A program made the position numbers and the translations under genes. This document shows positions 33,858 to 41,205 of a stretch of DNA of 64,000 nucleotides, one piece after another (the first letter of the stretch is position 1; each line of letters opens with the position of its first letter). Source of the stretch: Bacteriovoracaceae bacterium (GTDB lineage Bacteria; Bdellovibrionota; Bacteriovoracia; Bacteriovoracales; Bacteriovoracaceae); the NCBI GenBank assembly GCA_016786485.1, contig JAEUWD010000048.1:186001-250000 (forward strand), given 5' to 3'. The notes under the pieces are model-generated. The model was not told the DNA's origin. It worked only from the letters and a program-made list of their open reading frames with translations, and searched no databases.

Positions 33858-33949
33858 TAATTCTTTCGGCAAAATTTTCCGACCGTAAAAAAAGATTAAT
33901 GAAGTTTTCACGACGGTCGAAACGGAGTCTAGACAGATATGACATCTGT
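33858..33949 (+). promoter_or_regulatory. Candidate FliA-type promoter and leader hairpins of first flagellin
   Basis: TAATTCTT (33858) and TCCGACCG (33878), 12 bp apart, resemble a weak sigma-28 promoter (TAAAGTTT-N11-GCCGATAA). CGACCGT (33880-33886) is repeated inverted as ACGGTCG (33913-33919). ACAGAT (33933-33938) and ATCTGT (33944-33949) form a 6-bp hairpin in the leader. The promoter call is tentative; the inverted repeats are plain. Confidence 0.35.
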
Positions 33950-33998
33950 TGGAATAAATCAGGACGATTTATTCATCCCTATAATCAAGGAGGATTGC

Positions 33999-34850
33999 AT
34001 GGGATTAAGGATTAACACCAACGTCTCCTCGATCAACGCACAAAGAAATTTGCGTTCGACGAGATTAGACTTAGACAAGACTTTGGAGCGTCTAGCTTCA
34101 GGTAGTCGTATTAACCGCGCAGGTGACGACGCCGCCGGTCTCGCTATCTCAGAAAATTTAAGAGCACAGATCAGAGGTCTGAAGCAAGCTCAGAGAAACG
34201 CTGAAGATGGTATTTCATTAGTACAAATCGCTGAAGGTGGTTTGGCCGAATCTTCAAACATCTTGATCAGATTGCGCGAACTTGCAGTACAAGCCGCTTC
34301 TGATACTATCGGACCAACTGAACGTAAGTTCTTAAACGTTGAATTCGAACAGTTAACTCAAGAGATTGACAGAATTGCAAACGCGACAGAATTTAACCGC
34401 GTTCCATTATTAAACGGAACTGGTGCCGTTTTTGATATTCAAATCGGAACTAGAAATGACCCTATAAATGACCGTTTAACGTTCGATGCATCAAGCGCTG
34501 ACGTTAACGTAGCAGCTTTAGGTCTAAACCTAGCTTCAGTTGCGGACAAAATTTCTGCACAGAACTCACTAGCAGCTATCGACCAAGCAATTGTTTCGAT
34601 TTCAGCTATCAGAGCGGACTTCGGGGCCATGCAGAACAGATTACAATCGACAATTAACAACGTTGCTATCAGCGTAGAAAACTTATCAGCTGCGAACTCT
34701 CGTGTTCGTGACACTGATGTGGCTGAAGCGACAAGTGAATTGACGAAAAATAACATTTTAATGAACGCAGGTACATCAGTACTCGCTCAAGCTAACGTTA
34801 CTACCAAGAGTGCAATCGGTCTTATTCAAGCAGCGTCTAACGCAGGCTAG
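33999..34850 (+). CDS. fliC: Flagellin (first copy)
   Basis: 283 residues with the conserved flagellin ends: N-terminal MGLRINTNVSSINAQRNL and LASGSRINRAGDDAAGLAIS, C-terminal LSAANSRVRDTDVAEATSEL and a helix rich in Ala/Gln. The variable centre is very short. AAGGAGGA seven bases upstream fixes the start at 33999; the in-frame ATG at 33939 lies in the loop of a leader hairpin and has no ribosome-binding site. It forms the flagellar filament. A second copy follows after 215 bp. Confidence 0.96.
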   Translation: MGLRINTNVSSINAQRNLRSTRLDLDKTLERLASGSRINRAGDDAAGLAISENLRAQIRGLKQAQRNAEDGISLVQIAEGGLAESSNILIRLRELAVQAASDTIGPTERKFLNVEFEQLTQEIDRIANATEFNRVPLLNGTGAVFDIQIGTRNDPINDRLTFDASSADVNVAALGLNLASVADKISAQNSLAAIDQAIVSISAIRADFGAMQNRLQSTINNVAISVENLSAANSRVRDTDVAEATSELTKNNILMNAGTSVLAQANVTTKSAIGLIQAASNAG

Positions 34851-35042
34851 GAATTGGCTAGATAGTGTTCTTGATTTGTTTAGTAACATGGCGTTTTTTG
34901 TAAGTAACCTGCAAGTTAACTATAGAAGTTAACACCATGACGTGGGTATGACGTTCATCGGGTAAGGTATTTGTTTTTTTGTAACTTATTAATAACAACT
35001 TAAGTGGACATGAAGTCCGCTAGCTTAAACAGGAGGTTTTAT
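34851..35042 (+). promoter_or_regulatory. Intergenic leader of second flagellin with hairpins
   Basis: Structure seen: GTTAAC repeated at 34915-34920 and 34928-34933; the direct repeat ATGACG around 34936-34953; and a hairpin of GGAC (35006-35009) with GTCC (35015-35018), inside a wider TTAAG/CTTAA pairing (35000-35028). The hairpin ends just before AGGAGG at 35031. No convincing promoter or T-tract terminator is seen, so read-through from the first flagellin is possible. Confidence 0.4.
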
Positions 35043-35063
35043 ATGCGTAACAACGGAGCCTAA
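35043..35063 (+). CDS. Six-codon leader ORF before second flagellin
   Basis: ATG at 35043 encodes MRNNGA and stops at 35061-35063, two bases before the flagellin ATG at 35066. The best Shine-Dalgarno of the region, AGGAGG (35031-35036), is spaced for this mini-ORF, while CGGAG inside it is spaced for the flagellin. This is a translational-coupling layout; no function of the peptide is implied. Confidence 0.5.
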   Translation: MRNNGA

Positions 35064-35065
35064 AA

Positions 35066-35899
35066 ATGGGAATTAGAATTAATACAAACGTTGCTTCATT
35101 AGCAGCGCAGAGAAATTTAGGAATTACGAACAATGCTTTGAAAGATAATTTTGCCAAATTATCTTCAGGCTCAAGAATTACCAAGGCCAGCGACGATGCC
35201 GCTGGACTAGCAATAAGTGAGAAGTTGCGTGCACAAATTAGAGGGATTAGACAAGCTAAGAGGAACGCAGAAGACGGTATCTCACTTATTCAGACAGCTG
35301 AAGGTGGATTACAGGAAATCTCTAATATCGTTATTCGACTTAGAGAACTTGCCATCCAAGCAGCTTCTGATACGGTTGGAAACACTGAACGATCTTTCAC
35401 GGATGTTGAATTTCAAAGTCTTAAAGACGAAGTTCAGCGTATCGCGATGGTCTCAGAATTCAACGGTAGAAAGTTACTTAACGGCACCGGTGGGCTGGTT
35501 GAAGTTCAAGTCGGTATCTATAATGATGCTTTTCAAGACCGACTTAAATTCGATTCCAGTGCAATCGACGCCACTTTGGAAGCCCTCGGGATCGCTGCAG
35601 AAGGGATCTCAACCAAAGAAGGAGCACAAATATCGTTGCAAGCTTTGGACGATGCTCTGGTTAAGATTAACGGTAATAGAGCGGAGCTGGGAGCACTACA
35701 AAACAGACTTGGTTCAATTGTTAATACTCAAGGCATTAACGATGAAAACCTTAGTGCGGCCAACTCAAGAATTCGAGATGTGGATGTTGCCACTGAAACA
35801 GCAGATTTGACTAAGAATTCGATTCTTAATCGAGCTGGTGTCTCGGTCTTAACACAGGCGAACGCATCTCCAGAGGCAGCCTTGAAATTGATCGGATAA
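35066..35899 (+). CDS. fliC: Flagellin (second copy)
   Basis: 277 residues, clearly paralogous to the first flagellin: MGIRINTNVASLAAQRNL, SGSRITKASDDAAGLAISEK, and C-terminal LSAANSRIRDVDVATETADL. The central region is short and differs from the first copy. Multiple flagellins with separate positions in a sheathed or tapered filament are known in Bdellovibrio. It follows a six-codon leader ORF and is closed by a strong terminator. A 197-codon open frame in another phase (35217-35810) is a shadow of this gene. Confidence 0.96.
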   Translation: MGIRINTNVASLAAQRNLGITNNALKDNFAKLSSGSRITKASDDAAGLAISEKLRAQIRGIRQAKRNAEDGISLIQTAEGGLQEISNIVIRLRELAIQAASDTVGNTERSFTDVEFQSLKDEVQRIAMVSEFNGRKLLNGTGGLVEVQVGIYNDAFQDRLKFDSSAIDATLEALGIAAEGISTKEGAQISLQALDDALVKINGNRAELGALQNRLGSIVNTQGINDENLSAANSRIRDVDVATETADLTKNSILNRAGVSVLTQANASPEAALKLIG

Positions 35900-35990: not shown

Positions 35991-36965
35991 ATGAAGAAAA
36001 AAACCATCCTCATTTTTGGTGTCTCATCATTTGTTGGATCAAATTTAGCTGAGTATTTTAAGCGGGATTATCGTGTTATTGGTACCTACTTCAAGAACAA
36101 AGTTAAAATTGATGGAGTTCTAACTTTTCCTTGTGATGTTTTAAAAAAATCTCAAATTCAAACCGCCATTTATACTTTCAGACCAGACCTTACTATTTAC
36201 GCTGTTGGGCTTTCTTCGTTGGATGATTGTTATCATTATCCGAAACTAGCCGATGCGTTGAACGCGGTAGGTGTCTTTAACGTAAGTGGTTTTTCTGAAA
36301 GATACCGTTCGCGTTTTTGCTTTATTTCATCTAGTTATATTTTCCCTGGTCATAATGTGGTTTACAAAGAAAACGATACTCCGATGCCGGGAACGGTTTA
36401 TGGAAATACTTTGGCCAGTAGTGAATTTTATGTGCAGAAATCATGTTTAAATTATCTTATTTTCCGCTGCTGCCCGCTTTATGGACGTAGTTATAATAAT
36501 CATCAATTAAATTTTTTCGAGCTACTTGAGCGCAGATATGCTGAAGGAAAAACATTAACTTGTGACAACAAAGTTTTCACCGGTCACTTGGATATTTATT
36601 ATTTGTCGCGTGCGATTCAACTCGCTTTGGAAGCGGATATCCGCAATCGTTTGTTTCAATTAACTTCAAAAGACTATGGAACATATTTTAATTTTGCGAA
36701 AACTTATGCCAAGGTTTTTGGTAAGAGTGAAGGCTCGATTCAAAAAGGTGACTGGGATTTTCCAGCTGAGAATCTACGCTATGCCATTAAGATGATTGAT
36801 ACTGAAAATTATTTTTATAAAATGAATCAACAAAATCTTGAAACGACGCTTAATTTTGAAATGCCTACCATTGAAGAATCACTTAAATTCACAAAATTAC
36901 GATTAGGTTCTACCAATCAAATGAAGAAGAAAAATACCAAAGCTGCGGGTGTTAGTTTTATCTAG
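35991..36965 (+). CDS. RmlD/epimerase-like short-chain dehydrogenase, YxxxK lysine absent
   Basis: 324 residues of the extended SDR fold: nucleotide loop FGVSSFVGSNL near the N-terminus, CDVLKKSQI, YAVGLSSLDDC, ISSSYIFPG with the active-site Ser, then YGNTLASSEFYV where the catalytic YxxxK should read Lys but reads Leu. It resembles dTDP-4-dehydrorhamnose reductases and UDP-sugar epimerases. The missing lysine argues for changed or lost oxidoreductase activity. It lies between the flagellins and the Tad locus, so a role in surface glycosylation is possible. It converges with the next gene, overlapping by 8 bp. Confidence 0.8.
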   Translation: MKKKTILIFGVSSFVGSNLAEYFKRDYRVIGTYFKNKVKIDGVLTFPCDVLKKSQIQTAIYTFRPDLTIYAVGLSSLDDCYHYPKLADALNAVGVFNVSGFSERYRSRFCFISSSYIFPGHNVVYKENDTPMPGTVYGNTLASSEFYVQKSCLNYLIFRCCPLYGRSYNNHQLNFFELLERRYAEGKTLTCDNKVFTGHLDIYYLSRAIQLALEADIRNRLFQLTSKDYGTYFNFAKTYAKVFGKSEGSIQKGDWDFPAENLRYAIKMIDTENYFYKMNQQNLETTLNFEMPTIEESLKFTKLRLGSTNQMKKKNTKAAGVSFI

Positions 36966-37485
36966 CAGAGTGTTTTATAAATTCAGTTAAGTAATGTCGA
37001 ACGAGTGCTTCTTGTTTTATCGATTCACCACGGAAGCGCCATTGAACTTCACCGAAAGCCCCAACTTGAGCTTGGATTTCATGGACTGTATTAATCGAAG
37101 GTGCGTCTGAACCAAGTCGTGCTGAGAATAATCCACCAGCATTAGAAAGAAAGCCGATAGTGATCACATCATTACTTCTACGGGCCACAACCAATTTAAG
37201 GGCATTACGGAATAACATAAAATCGTTAACGGTATTTGAAATTTTAAAAATTTTGATACTGTTGCGATTATCTTTTCCTGCGCGATATTCATTAAATTTT
37301 GAAACATAAATTTCGAAAAACTCACGAATGTTATTCATGAATTCGATCGATGATTCTTCTAGAATTCTTTCAGGGTTTAAATGTTCGTGGAAATTAATAA
37401 CCCCAGACTCTTCCATATTGATTTCATCCATGGCCAGAGATTCGATCCAGTCAGTAGCAATTTTTTCGTATTGAGTATGTTCCAT
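36958..37485 (-). CDS. Hypothetical cytoplasmic protein (175 aa)
   Basis: The start is placed at the ATG at 37485 (MEHTQYEKIATDWIESL). The frame stays open to 37656, but the extension is basic, low in protein character and overlaps strong hairpins. The protein is acidic at the start, with strand-rich middle (RRSNDVITIGFLSN) and a final VQWRFRGESIKQEALV segment; no signal peptide, membrane segment or family that I recognise. No clear ribosome-binding site precedes the chosen ATG, which makes the leader of interest. Confidence 0.65.
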   Translation of the reverse strand: MEHTQYEKIATDWIESLAMDEINMEESGVINFHEHLNPERILEESSIEFMNNIREFFEIYVSKFNEYRAGKDNRNSIKIFKISNTVNDFMLFRNALKLVVARRSNDVITIGFLSNAGGLFSARLGSDAPSINTVHEIQAQVGAFGEVQWRFRGESIKQEALVRHYLTEFIKHSAR

Positions 37486-37738
37486 TATTTTATTATTGAA
37501 TCTGCGGGACAATATGTCTATTGGAAATCGATTGAAGATGGGCCTGGTTGCTGGCTTCTTGAATTTCGCGCCCCTGTTAACCAGGTGGGCGCAATTAGTA
37601 ATCACTTTAGGCTTCCTATTTATCTGCACCTTTCGGTGCCAGTTAGGCGTGCACACTATGATCAGGGACAGCTCCCGAATAGAAAATTGTAGGGCGAAAT
37701 AATCAATACACCTACAACCAGACCCACTATCGATTATA
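37486..37738 (-). ncRNA. Candidate structured leader RNA or small RNA
   Basis: On the minus strand, TATAAT at 37733-37738 is followed by a 240-nt stretch without a convincing ORF but with strong hairpins. These are TTGTAGG/CCTACAA (37687-37693 with 37711-37717), GGGA/TCCC (37665-37676), GCACC-GAAA-GGTGC with a GNRA tetraloop (37626-37639), and a GC-rich stem GCGCC..CCTG with CAGG.GGCGC (37568-37592). The GNRA loop exists only on this strand. It may be the 5' leader of the gene at 37485, or a separate RNA. It does not match the c-di-GMP-I riboswitch core or any other class that I can recall. Confidence 0.4.
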
Positions 37739-37842
37739 CAACGAGAATATGAGGGGCCGAAGTCGAAAAATAAGATAAATCAGTAACCCAATCAATTCAA
37801 AAACTTAACGCTTTTGTAGAGCTGTAACTCGATGCGCAAGTG

Positions 37843-37851
37843 TGCTATAAT
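37843..37851 (+). promoter_or_regulatory. Extended -10 promoter of the Tad pilin
   Basis: TGCTATAAT (37843-37851) is a perfect extended -10 element; the -35 position has only a weak TGTAAC. Predicted start is near 37858, giving a leader of about 108 nt before the pilin start at 37966. Confidence 0.65.
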
Positions 37852-37901
37852 AATGAATGATCAGGATGATGTAATGACATAAGTATTTGTTTTTACGTTT
37901 A

Positions 37902-37959
37902 AAAGGAAAGATTCCTTAAGTTTTATACCCTTACGTACGAGAAGTATAAAACAGGGGAG
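37902..37959 (+). promoter_or_regulatory. Leader hairpins before the Flp pilin ribosome-binding site
   Basis: AAGGA and TCCTT form a small stem (near 37902-37918). GTTTTATAC (37920-37928) and GTATAAAAC (37944-37952) form a perfect 9-bp stem with a 15-nt loop. The Shine-Dalgarno CAGGGGAG (37952-37959) begins at the foot of the second stem. It may stabilise the mRNA of an abundant pilin or control its translation. Confidence 0.6.
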
Positions 37960-37965
37960 TGCTGT

Positions 37966-38166
37966 ATGAAAAAGAAAATTCTCGAGTTCCTTAAAGATGA
38001 AAGCGGACAAACATCAACAGAGTATATTCTGTTGCTAGTTATTGTTGCGATTATCGTTATGAAAATGAAGGATACATTAATTCCAAAGCTAACAGGCTTG
38101 TTGGATACTTCATTTAACGGAATCGAAGCTTCATTACAACAAGGTCTTAACGGCGGGACTAATTAA
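37966..38166 (+). CDS. flp: Flp-type major pilin
   Basis: 66 residues. The prepilin signature is ESG-QTSTEYILLL: cleavage is expected after Gly14, with Glu19 at mature position +5 and Tyr20 at +6, followed by a hydrophobic assembly helix. The mature pilin is about 52 residues, the typical size of Flp pilins of the Tad system. It has its own strong promoter and structured leader, and a 111-bp gap follows before the next gene, consistent with much higher expression than the rest of the locus. Confidence 0.92.
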   Translation: MKKKILEFLKDESGQTSTEYILLLVIVAIIVMKMKDTLIPKLTGLLDTSFNGIEASLQQGLNGGTN

Positions 38167-38277
38167 TCCGTAATTAGCTTTTTTAGGCTAAGTTAATCCA
38201 AATCAAATATACCTTACTTTCAGTAGGCAATATTTTCCTTTTATCTATTGTTGCACCAACAAGTTTAAAATAGAGTC

Positions 38278-38496
38278 ATGAGATCTATTGTAAAATCCGC
38301 GAGCGGTCAGGCGCTTTTAGAATACGTGCTAGTGCTCGTTTTCATTACCTCGACTGGATATCTTTTCTTGGGGAAATTCACCCAGTTTGTTTCCAGCTCA
38401 GTTGGTAATCTCAATCATATTTTATCCATTAATTTAAAAACTGGTGTGTGCGAAACAGAATGCTATTTTAAGGGATATAAGAATGAAAATAATTAA
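38278..38496 (+). CDS. Flp/TadE-like minor prepilin
   Basis: 72 residues. SASG-QALLEYVLVL gives cleavage after Gly10 and Glu15 at +5, then a hydrophobic helix of about 20 residues. The C-terminus carries two cysteines (GVCETECYF) that could form a disulfide. It overlaps the prepilin peptidase gene by 14 bp, so the two are co-translated. It is probably a minor pilin subunit. Confidence 0.8.
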   Translation: MRSIVKSASGQALLEYVLVLVFITSTGYLFLGKFTQFVSSSVGNLNHILSINLKTGVCETECYFKGYKNENN

Positions 38497-39007
38497 TCCT
38501 GAAACTAACAGCATTCTTTATTTTTTCTTGCTGGCCGAATTAATTTGGATTTCTCTTCTAGATATCAAAACTCAAAAAATTAAAAATTATTGGTCCATTT
38601 TAAACATAGCTGTTTTTTTCTTTTTGATTGTTTTTGCTAGCGAAACTTACCCTCTGAAGATTGCTATGTTTTATTATTCGTTTGGTTTTTTATTCGTCGG
38701 GTTTCTGCTCTTCTTGATAAAAATTATGGGGGCTGGTGATATTAAATATCTTTTCTCGTTTTTCCTCATTTTGCCCTTAGGAATTCATCAAGATATGTTT
38801 AATCGCCTTATTGTTTTCACCGGCATCTGTGCCTTCGTTTTTTTGACTTTCAATTTGGTCAAAAACTACAAAATTTTATTCTCGGCCTTAAAAGAAAAAA
38901 AATATGGATTGATCAAAAATTGTTTTGGAACAAAGTTTGCGTTTTCACCAGTTATTTTGATTACGTGGATATGGTTTGGAGTAGATAGTGGTAAATTTGG
39001 TTTCTAA
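38483..39007 (+). CDS. tadV: Prepilin peptidase, TadV/CpaA (A24 family)
   Basis: 174 residues with about five TM helices. The two catalytic aspartates of aspartic prepilin peptidases are visible: LLDIKTQ (Asp about 27) and the GxGD-type motif MGAGDIK (Asp about 86). The start is the ATG at 38483, with AAGGGA eight bases upstream; the frame opens earlier at 38444, but that adds sequence inside the previous gene. It should cut the five G-Q-x-x-x-E prepilins encoded around it. Confidence 0.9.
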   Translation: MKIINPETNSILYFFLLAELIWISLLDIKTQKIKNYWSILNIAVFFFLIVFASETYPLKIAMFYYSFGFLFVGFLLFLIKIMGAGDIKYLFSFFLILPLGIHQDMFNRLIVFTGICAFVFLTFNLVKNYKILFSALKEKKYGLIKNCFGTKFAFSPVILITWIWFGVDSGKFGF

Positions 39008-39293
39008 TTCGAAAGGCCAGTCACTGGTTGAATATATTCTTTTGATGGTACTGGTGAGTATAGTCTTCACCGTTATTATTAATAGCCAAATTATGACTAA
39101 TCTCTTGAGTGATAATGGAAGTCTTATTCAAAATACAAAATCGACGATTGAATTTAATTATCGTCATGGCCACTCTGGATTCGATGCACTCGGCTCTGGT
39201 ACTAATACCACGGATTACAATGCTGCTAATCACGCTAGTTACTCGCTCAGTAACGGAACGTACTTCTTCGCACCGGCAGAGGCGTATCCATGA
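38988..39293 (+). CDS. TadE-like minor prepilin
   Basis: 101 residues from a GTG at 38988 with GGAG eight bases upstream, overlapping tadV by 20 bp. SKG-QSLVEYILLM gives cleavage after Gly10 and Glu15 at +5, followed by a hydrophobic helix. The C-terminal 60 residues are polar and rich in Asn, Ser and Tyr (NTTDYNAANHASYSLSNG), which fits an exposed surface or adhesive region. It overlaps the next prepilin gene by 4 bp. Confidence 0.8.
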   Translation: MVNLVSNSKGQSLVEYILLMVLVSIVFTVIINSQIMTNLLSDNGSLIQNTKSTIEFNYRHGHSGFDALGSGTNTTDYNAANHASYSLSNGTYFFAPAEAYP

Positions 39294-39829
39294 TAACAAA
39301 TAATAAAGGCCAATCCAGTATTGAATTTATTCTGATGTTTACGGTGACCTTCACTTTGGTTTTTTTATGGATTGTCCAAGCTTATAATTTGGGCGTTGGT
39401 TACCTCGCTCATTACGCTAACTTTATGGCGAGTCGAACTTACCTCACGCATGATACAGGTAGTATGAACACACGTGGGGCGGTTAGCGCGATATTAACGG
39501 ATTCTCAGAATGAAGCTCGCAGAGTGTATGAAAAATATCATCTCGAACTTTTTGTCAAAGGTTCATCCCAGTTTTCAGTTAATGCGCCCCTGACCGATGT
39601 TTTAACTGAATATGTTGGAACTTTTGTGGATTTCGATCAGCCCTTTTCATTTATTAAATTTATTGGAGGCAATACACGGATAAACCTAAGAACAGAATCA
39701 TTTCTGGGAAAAGAATCTCCCCGTGCAGAATGCAAACAGCAAATTTGCCAAGCCATGTTTGGGCAAGATTGTGATGGGATCAATGCTTCCTTGCAAAGTC
39801 ATATTACCGCTTTTGATGATGGATGTTGA
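39290..39829 (+). CDS. TadE-like prepilin with C-terminal cysteines
   Basis: 179 residues. NKG-QSSIEFILMF gives cleavage after Gly7 and Glu12 at +5, then one hydrophobic helix. The periplasmic region ends with four cysteines (ECKQQICQ, DCDG, final GC) that may form disulfides. It fits TadE/TadF pseudopilins that prime pilus assembly. It overlaps neighbours on both sides by a few bases. Confidence 0.85.
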   Translation: MITNNKGQSSIEFILMFTVTFTLVFLWIVQAYNLGVGYLAHYANFMASRTYLTHDTGSMNTRGAVSAILTDSQNEARRVYEKYHLELFVKGSSQFSVNAPLTDVLTEYVGTFVDFDQPFSFIKFIGGNTRINLRTESFLGKESPRAECKQQICQAMFGQDCDGINASLQSHITAFDDGC

Positions 39830-40308
39830 AAATGAAAAATGAGAAAGGACAATCACTATTTGAATTTGTTTTTTTTCTACCTGTGTTTATTATTTGCTTT
39901 TTAGTACTAACGGGATTGGGAAGTGCCATCAACGGTTCTATCAATCAACAAAAAATTACGCGTGGTTATTTTTTTATTCGTAATAAAAACAACTCGAACC
40001 TTCCTCGTCCTGTCAATGCGAGTGCTACCACATGGACAAAATTTGGTATGTTTTACGTTGGTTACAAAATAAATCAATTCTCTGGGACGAGCGATCAACC
40101 CGAAGCTGCTTGTTATAAGATTAACCTACCTTTTGCCTCAACTTTTTCTGATACAGATTGTTCAAATCCTTATAGCACTCTCACAACCGACTTCGTTCGC
40201 GTTTATACTGTCTTTGGACTCTGTGGCGCCACTTACGAGCGTAATGGTCAGGATGTGCGACCCAGTTCCAATTCCTGGAATCGCGAAGCTTGTCTACTTA
40301 TTGACTAG
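39823..40308 (+). CDS. TadE/TadF-like prepilin
   Basis: 161 residues. EKG-QSLFEFVFFL gives cleavage after Gly9 and Glu14 at +5, then a hydrophobic helix. The exposed region has four cysteines (AACYK, TDCSN, GLCGA, EACLL), suggesting two disulfides. It is the last of five prepilin-like genes. Starts at 39823 and 39832 are both possible. It is separated by 81 bp from cpaB by a region with a perfect palindrome. Confidence 0.82.
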   Translation: MLKMKNEKGQSLFEFVFFLPVFIICFLVLTGLGSAINGSINQQKITRGYFFIRNKNNSNLPRPVNASATTWTKFGMFYVGYKINQFSGTSDQPEAACYKINLPFASTFSDTDCSNPYSTLTTDFVRVYTVFGLCGATYERNGQDVRPSSNSWNREACLLID

Positions 40309-40335
40309 GGACATTTTTCCCCTTCAGTACCTGTG

Positions 40336-40355
40336 AATTTTAACATGTTAAAATT
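40336..40355. promoter_or_regulatory. Perfect 20-bp palindrome upstream of cpaB
   Basis: AATTTTAACATGTTAAAATT reads identically on both strands. It is centred 44 bp before the cpaB start codon, in an 81-bp gap that splits the prepilin genes from the assembly-machine genes. It is too AT-rich to be a good terminator and lacks a T-tract, so an operator is the better guess. Confidence 0.55.
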
Positions 40356-40389
40356 TAAGTTGTGAATATTCTATGAAAAGTGAGTAGTT

Positions 40390-41205
40390 ATGAATAGACG
40401 TGCATTTACTTTAAGTTTGGTCATCGCAGGGATTGCGATGTTTATGGTTTACTCTTACATCAAAGGTAAAGAAGCTGAATATGTAAAATCATATGGGCAA
40501 TCAGTCGCCGTTGTTGTCGCGCAAGCGGATGTAAAAGAATTGGAATTACTTGATGACAGAAAAGTAATGGTCGTCAACGTTCCAGAAAAATTTGTGCAAC
40601 CTGGAGCTCTTCGAAATATTTCTGAAATTGATAACATGTATGCGGCCGTTCCCATTCTTAAAGGCGAACAAATTACTAAAACGCGCGTGACTCATCCAGG
40701 TGGTAGAACTGGTCTAGCCAGTCAGGTTGCTGTTGGTAAAAGAGCGATCTCCATTCGTGTTTCTGATGAAACCGCTGTCGCAAAATTAATTAAACCAGGT
40801 GACCGTGTGGATCTGGTGGCTTTGATTGATTATGCTGGTGGTAAAAAAGATATGATTAAAGTGAAGACAGTTTTACAAGATGTGCTTGTGCTTTCAACTG
40901 GTCTGAAAGTGACAAATGCGATTCCACTTATTGCTGAAAAAACGGATGCTGGTTATCAAACACGAAACCTAAATAGTTATACCGGTTTCAGCACCATCAC
41001 TCTGGAACTTACTCCATTCGAAGTTCAGAAAGTTATTTTCCTCGATTCCTTAGGCGGGAACGTGAGACTTAGTTTAAGAAACAATGACGATAAAACAATT
41101 GAAAGAATAAGTGTGACGAAAATTTTTGATGTCTTAGGCGAAGATGCCCCAGAAGCCAAATCGTATTTTGCCGAACAAAATGCGCGAACCCAAGGACGAA
41201 GATGA
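40390..41205 (+). CDS. cpaB: Tad pilus assembly protein CpaB/RcpC
   Basis: 271 residues. An N-terminal membrane anchor (about 7-24) is followed by an SAF-type domain (VVVAQADVKELELL, KGEQITKTRV) and the RcpC/CpaB domain with VAVGKRAISIRVSDETAV and PGDRVDLVAL. It is a periplasmic partner of the Tad secretin. It overlaps the secretin gene by 4 bp. Confidence 0.93.
   Translation: MNRRAFTLSLVIAGIAMFMVYSYIKGKEAEYVKSYGQSVAVVVAQADVKELELLDDRKVMVVNVPEKFVQPGALRNISEIDNMYAAVPILKGEQITKTRVTHPGGRTGLASQVAVGKRAISIRVSDETAVAKLIKPGDRVDLVALIDYAGGKKDMIKVKTVLQDVLVLSTGLKVTNAIPLIAEKTDAGYQTRNLNSYTGFSTITLELTPFEVQKVIFLDSLGGNVRLSLRNNDDKTIERISVTKIFDVLGEDAPEAKSYFAEQNARTQGRR

Follow-up and report, generated by a model that had tools for sequence, protein, structure and literature searches.

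Evidence for a 6S RNA gene directly upstream of a conserved, uncharacterized protein gene in a Bacteriovoracaceae bacterium

The window analyzed here is a 64,000-nt stretch of genomic DNA from a bacterium of the Bacteriovoracaceae, a family that the taxonomy assigns to Bdellovibrionota; the organism is probably related to predatory bacteria. On its minus strand, a small RNA gene is followed by a short spacer and a protein-coding gene that has a promoter of its own. The features are listed below in the order in which they are read on that strand.

37733-37738, minus strand: -10 box TATAAT of the 6S promoter
37536-37728, minus strand: 6S RNA gene (ssrS), 193 nt, matching Rfam RF00013
37689-37705, plus strand: predicted product RNA (pRNA) beginning GUAGGGCGAAA, copied from the 6S bubble; putative start, arbitrary end
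37627-37638, minus strand: GAAA-capped hairpin, CACC-GAAA-GGTG, in the variable apical tip
37486-37535, minus strand: spacer after the 6S RNA, holding the promoter of the next gene
37515-37520, minus strand: -35 box TAGACA of the downstream gene
37492-37497, minus strand: -10 box AATAAT of the downstream gene, 6 nt before the ATG
36958-37485, minus strand: 6S-linked gene for a conserved, uncharacterized protein of 175 aa, with an mRNA predicted to be leaderless

An Rfam scan of the whole window, one of the checks proposed in the initial annotation, returned 6S RNA as the sole match above cut-off. The match scores 58.7 bits against a cut-off of 46.4 bits and covers the model from end to end (positions 1-187 of 187). 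It is also the only Rfam family matched at E values up to 1 within 37440-37860, in agreement with the earlier statement that the stretch does not resemble the c-di-GMP-I core. The margin above the 6S cut-off is just 12 bits, and the Rfam alignment has a loose 5′ arm and flags ten positions (five pairs) as nonstandard. A search of the organism’s own genome, extended to matches at E 10, found a single copy of 6S. On the basis of the sequence match, the conserved fold, the promoter box, and the phylum-wide occurrence, we identify the minus strand of 37536-37728 as the ssrS gene encoding the 6S RNA of this bacterium, with a probability of about 96%. The structured small RNA that was first described on this strand is real; it is a member of a known family with a known mechanism and, given the full-length 6S match, not the new class of RNA that had been envisaged.

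The predicted fold is that of a 6S RNA. In the available part of PMC8414754, 6S RNAs are described as rod-shaped molecules of about 160-200 nt that end in a closing stem, and the 193-nt RNA has this length and this form. The predicted folding energy of 37536-37728, minus strand, is -74.4 kcal/mol compared with a mean of -53.6 for shuffled sequences (z -4.93), a value equaled by 0 of 200 shuffles. Inverted repeats were initially put at four or more; the stretch contains 15 arm pairs of at least 6 nt, including a long imperfect pair (37539-37573 with 37692-37726) that corresponds to the closing stem region. The ends of the RNA are paired in both the MFE and centroid folds. In the MFE fold, a large open central bubble is predicted, with 15 unpaired nt on its 5′ side and a small hairpin on its 3′ side. 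GC content is 48% within the RNA, 43% across 37486-37738, and 35% in the right-hand intergenic flank, so that the higher local GC reported earlier is borne out. The 3′ end of the RNA probably lies near 37536. No intrinsic terminator was found on the minus strand in a scan of 37300-37980, and as this promoter and terminator scan also demands a -35 box, the 6S promoter is not listed in its output.

This RNA shares with RF00013 its length, closing stem, apical arm, and a bubble with a hairpin opposite, in addition to a pRNA template with GG at positions 4 and 5, a TATAAT box of its own, and the presence of one gene. It differs from typical members in its GAAA-capped tip and in having a neighbor other than ygfA. 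It also differs in divergence, which is such that Rfam searches miss or under-score some of its relatives.

Conservation of the fold was assessed in an alignment of 35 of the 49 6S places in the family with fetched loci, mostly the best-scoring ones. Pairing holds in 98.7% of the 770 cells of the apical arm, and double changes are seen in 11 of its 22 predicted pairs; as all 35 RNAs were found through the 6S model, these counts are biased towards the 6S structure. Sliding the partners by one to three columns reduces pairing to 32-52%. Covariation, another check proposed at the outset, is present: double-change cells number 53 against a mean of 15.0 in shuffles (0 of 500 as high, in a test that ignores relatedness of the sequences), whereas further pair types, at 21 against 19.6, do not exceed the shuffles (101 of 500 as high). 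The closing stem of these 35 RNAs, the ends of which are poorly aligned, was not recovered by RNAalifold, and pairing between own and swapped ends was therefore tested directly. The 5′ and 3′ ends of the same RNA pair with a mean energy of -23.5 kcal/mol compared with -12.8 for ends swapped between species, a difference that 0 of 10000 permutations matched, relatedness again being ignored. The own end ranks first as partner in 24 of the 35 RNAs, and its lowest rank is 15.

The apical tip varies in length and sequence among the family RNAs. The hairpin with a GAAA tetraloop that headed the initial annotation is present on the minus strand (37638-37627), but a GNRA loop closed by at least three pairs occurs in the apical region of only 7 of the 35 family RNAs, and it was rejected as a defining element. 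The repeat TTGTAGG/CCTACAA had prompted the idea of an alternative pairing between the pRNA template and the 5′ arm. As a conserved switch, this pairing was also rejected, with 3 of 35 family members beating shuffles at the 5% level.

The promoter of the RNA gene is recognizable in most of the family loci. The TATAAT that had been pointed out at the expected start lies at 37738-37733 on the minus strand. An exact TATAAT is found near the mapped 6S start in 28 of 35 loci, including this one, compared with 2 of 35 in an upstream control stretch; the remaining loci carry a 5-of-6 match (six loci) or a 4-of-6 match (one locus). Given this box, a transcription start near 37726-37727 is a reasonable reading of the sequence. 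Within the bubble, a template CCTA(C/T) is present in all 35 family RNAs and one of the CCTACnA type in 34 of them, as counted from sequence only. The corresponding pRNA would have GG at its positions 4 and 5 with an adjoining A, start-site features described in the available part of PMC8414754 for the pRNAs of Gram-negatives and for reference 6S RNAs. Among 11 more distant RNAs of the phylum, cores of CCTACA, CCTTACA, or CCGACA were seen by eye in several, though not in all.

The physiological role can be predicted from the known family. The 6S RNA would mimic an open promoter, and its central bubble would fill the active site of the housekeeping RNA polymerase, restraining the enzyme as growth slows. 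On recovery, the polymerase would copy a short pRNA, here probably beginning GUAGGGCGAAA, from the bubble, leading to release. The adjacent protein gene would probably be transcribed separately, from its own promoter and as a leaderless mRNA.

To describe the distribution of 6S RNA, genomes were sampled at several levels. Among 39 genomes, this one included, 6S was detected at E values up to 0.001 in 35; it scored above the cut-off in 27 and not in 12. In a sample of 144 genomes from across the phylum, 6S was matched in 130 and scored above the cut-off in 125, and in the same search 4 of 14 control genomes, including E. coli and B. subtilis, scored above it. Within the family, 48 of 59 genomes have 6S at E values up to 0.01, 40 of them above the cut-off. 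Broad surveys of 6S RNA may already include these species.

A family-specific model recovers 6S genes that the standard search misses in this lineage. It was built from the 35 aligned RNAs and excluded six family genomes (G010, G014, G039, G064, G067, G149) in which the linked gene is present, so that the link would predict a 6S gene, and in which an Rfam search had reported no 6S. The model gave one strong 6S match upstream of the linked gene in all six, at 115.6-143.1 bits. The gap between RNA and gene is short in five of these genomes and about 1.4 kb in G014, whose 6S had earlier been seen below the Rfam cut-off. With the same model, no 6S was found in six family genomes without the linked gene (G008, G013, G044, G045, G051, G063) or in three gene-bearing genomes of group f4 (G027, G089, G095); the f4 result either counts against a universal link or marks a limit of the family model. 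In total, 6S and the linked gene are both present in 53 of the 59 family genomes; the other six, all incomplete at 66-86%, have neither.

The less ordinary feature of the locus is this conserved, uncharacterized neighbor, not the 6S RNA. The protein family is present in 53 of 59 family genomes and in 131 of 144 genomes across the phylum, and both 6S and the gene were detected in 124 of the 144. At the locus described here, RNA and gene share a strand, and 50 nt separate the end of the 6S RNA from the gene downstream. The same order and orientation, with 6S directly upstream at a distance of at most 500 nt, are found in 75 of the 124 genomes, which represent ten family-level groups; the median gap is 82 as measured to the profile match. 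The two are near each other but otherwise arranged in 8 genomes and apart in 41, either far away on the same contig (13) or on different contigs (28); a link in every genome was rejected on these counts. Linkage was never seen in f6 (0 of 20, one-contig genomes included) or f11 (0 of 9). In the phylum-wide Rfam search, 7 of the 131 gene-bearing genomes lacked 6S: four belong to the window’s own family, where 6S was found by other searches, and the other three are f4. Six genomes, four of them f9, have 6S with no gene detected.

Individual loci show further variation. At L054/L155 (G070:C21), the linked gene comes first and 6S follows after 7 nt, encoded on the opposite strand. The congeneric G012 and G175 do not share this arrangement, which looks like a local inversion. 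Some metagenome bins contain two 6S-linked genes (L061, G041:C7 and G041:C76; also L123/L147), and in G041 each of the two has its own 6S; such doubled genes could reflect duplication or a mixed bin. The loci L147 and L148, from different bins, show identical match values.

The linked gene has a conserved promoter. Among 33 loci, including this one, 22 have a TTGACA-like box (5 or 6 of 6) that starts exactly 35 nt ahead of the ATG, and four more have one that starts 36 nt ahead of it; in the other seven, the box is elsewhere or weak. Of the 35 loci, L031 was omitted as its fetched stretch contains no gene and L054 for its gene on the opposite strand. The -10 boxes, which precede the ATG by 6 nt, are less well matched, with 5 of 6 positions in the window and usually 4 of 6 in relatives. 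Across 80 named loci, a TTGACA-like box was found at -34 to -36 of any of the first three ATGs for 70 of 76 recognized linked genes compared with 26 of 476 other ORFs with unconfirmed starts. The spacing of the -35 box should place the transcription start on the start codon or immediately beside it. As stated initially, no Shine-Dalgarno sequence is visible by eye before the downstream gene; this is best explained by a leaderless mRNA, and the transcript is probably of this type as judged from its promoter. Two loci from one genus (L024, L062) and L012 have a longer spacer and, by eye, a purine-rich stretch resembling a Shine-Dalgarno sequence. Among 48 ORFs tested in the window, the sole other TTGACA-like box at leaderless spacing lies around 48339 on the minus strand; it may be there by chance, since a purine-rich stretch also precedes that ATG.

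These data bear on the earlier suggestion of a riboswitch-like leader, according to which the RNA would be a new riboswitch or another cis-acting element controlling the downstream gene. The conserved position of the RNA, which in 75 of 124 genomes closely precedes the gene in the same orientation, would suit such a role. Nevertheless, a leader is very improbable: the RNA matches a known trans-acting RNA from end to end, the gene has its own -35 box at a leaderless distance by both of the counts given above, and RNA and gene persist while apart in f6, f11, and other groups. It is less probable still that a longer protein gene begins within the stretch. The frame that continues to 37656, named initially as what might overturn an RNA, does exist and spans 232 codons, and in 10 of 32 relatives it likewise extends a little way into the RNA. 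In the other 22, it closes before the RNA, and conservation within the RNA tracks base pairing; the extended frame is probably not coding, and the initial judgement that no convincing ORF is present holds. Just as remote is a 6S-like RNA of another kind, such as Ms1, whose partner would be the core polymerase and not the holoenzyme. The available part of PMC9130861 describes a structural relationship between Ms1 and 6S RNA, but 6S is the sole family matched at E values up to 1 in a library that may not include Ms1, and the features of a pRNA template are present.

With the RNA assigned to 6S, the link to the protein gene may matter, as such links can point to a shared function. To our knowledge, protein partners of 6S RNA besides RNA polymerase are poorly known. 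It is conceivable, though doubtful, that in this phylum the product of the linked gene acts as a partner of 6S RNA or of RNA polymerase. Such a protein might, for example, load, release, or counteract 6S during growth arrest, and its gene might be kept beside the RNA gene and leaderless so that both products appear under the same conditions.

The 175-aa protein has no convincing sequence relative in Pfam, NCBIfam, or the PDB, and no match in a phage collection. Two sets of names were considered and rejected as chance: MenI, from a weak NCBIfam match (E 0.059), and scattered Pfam matches, each in one or two of 33 members (best E 0.0026). A structure model with a mean pLDDT of 86.5 has two N-terminal helices, six strands, and a C-terminal helix. 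Foldseek gave 0 PDB matches at E values up to 0.001 for this model. VIA-align gave a best Z of 9.7 to 2fug chain 7, a bacterial complex I subunit (rmsd 2.5, 105 aligned), which exceeds only by a modest margin the 7 to 8 that is typical as the top Z for models with no clear match. The next matches are Mediator and CyaY (frataxin) chains at Z 8.3 to 8.0, with CyaY at 8.1 and 8.0. A frataxin-like arrangement is suggested by VIA-align only.

The locus can be compared with several systems in the literature. In gammaproteobacteria, according to the available part of PMC4064990, ssrS-ygfA likewise has 6S directly upstream of a protein gene and is kept across many species. In that system, the 5′ UTR of ygfA contains 6S, whereas the neighbor here is uncharacterized and has its own promoter. 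A ygfA/fau homologue (PF01812) is found on another contig, C18, of this organism’s own genome. A neighborhood conserved within a clade is also described for lactic acid bacteria, where, in the available part of PMC8414754, 6S lies between rarA and uspA; the neighbors differ from those here. In a Bdellovibrio, B. bacteriovorus, the available part of PMC3627812 describes merRNA, which is likewise an abundant structured RNA. Unlike this locus, merRNA holds a c-di-GMP riboswitch, of which the window has no match above cut-off. 6S RNA does not occur in the available text of that paper, and the terms 6S RNA, ncRNA, and ssrS do not occur in a comparative genomics study of Bdellovibrionota (PMC11656739). 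Among the matches listed in open-licence literature, no paper on 6S RNA in Bdellovibrionota was identifiable by its title or the start of its abstract.

Other genes surround the locus in the window. The linked gene is convergent with a gene of the RmlD/NAD-epimerase type (35991-36965, plus strand), and a similar-looking convergent gene adjoins the linked gene in L108 (Bacteriovorax sp. BSW11_IV). On the plus strand at 33939-35899, there are two tandem flagellin-like genes, the second confirmed by Pfam and the first recognized by eye. A probable Flp/Tad-type pilus cluster occupies 37966-41205 on the plus strand and includes a small Flp-like pilin (below the Pfam cut-off), a gene of the prepilin peptidase family, and ORFs that appear pilin-like by eye.
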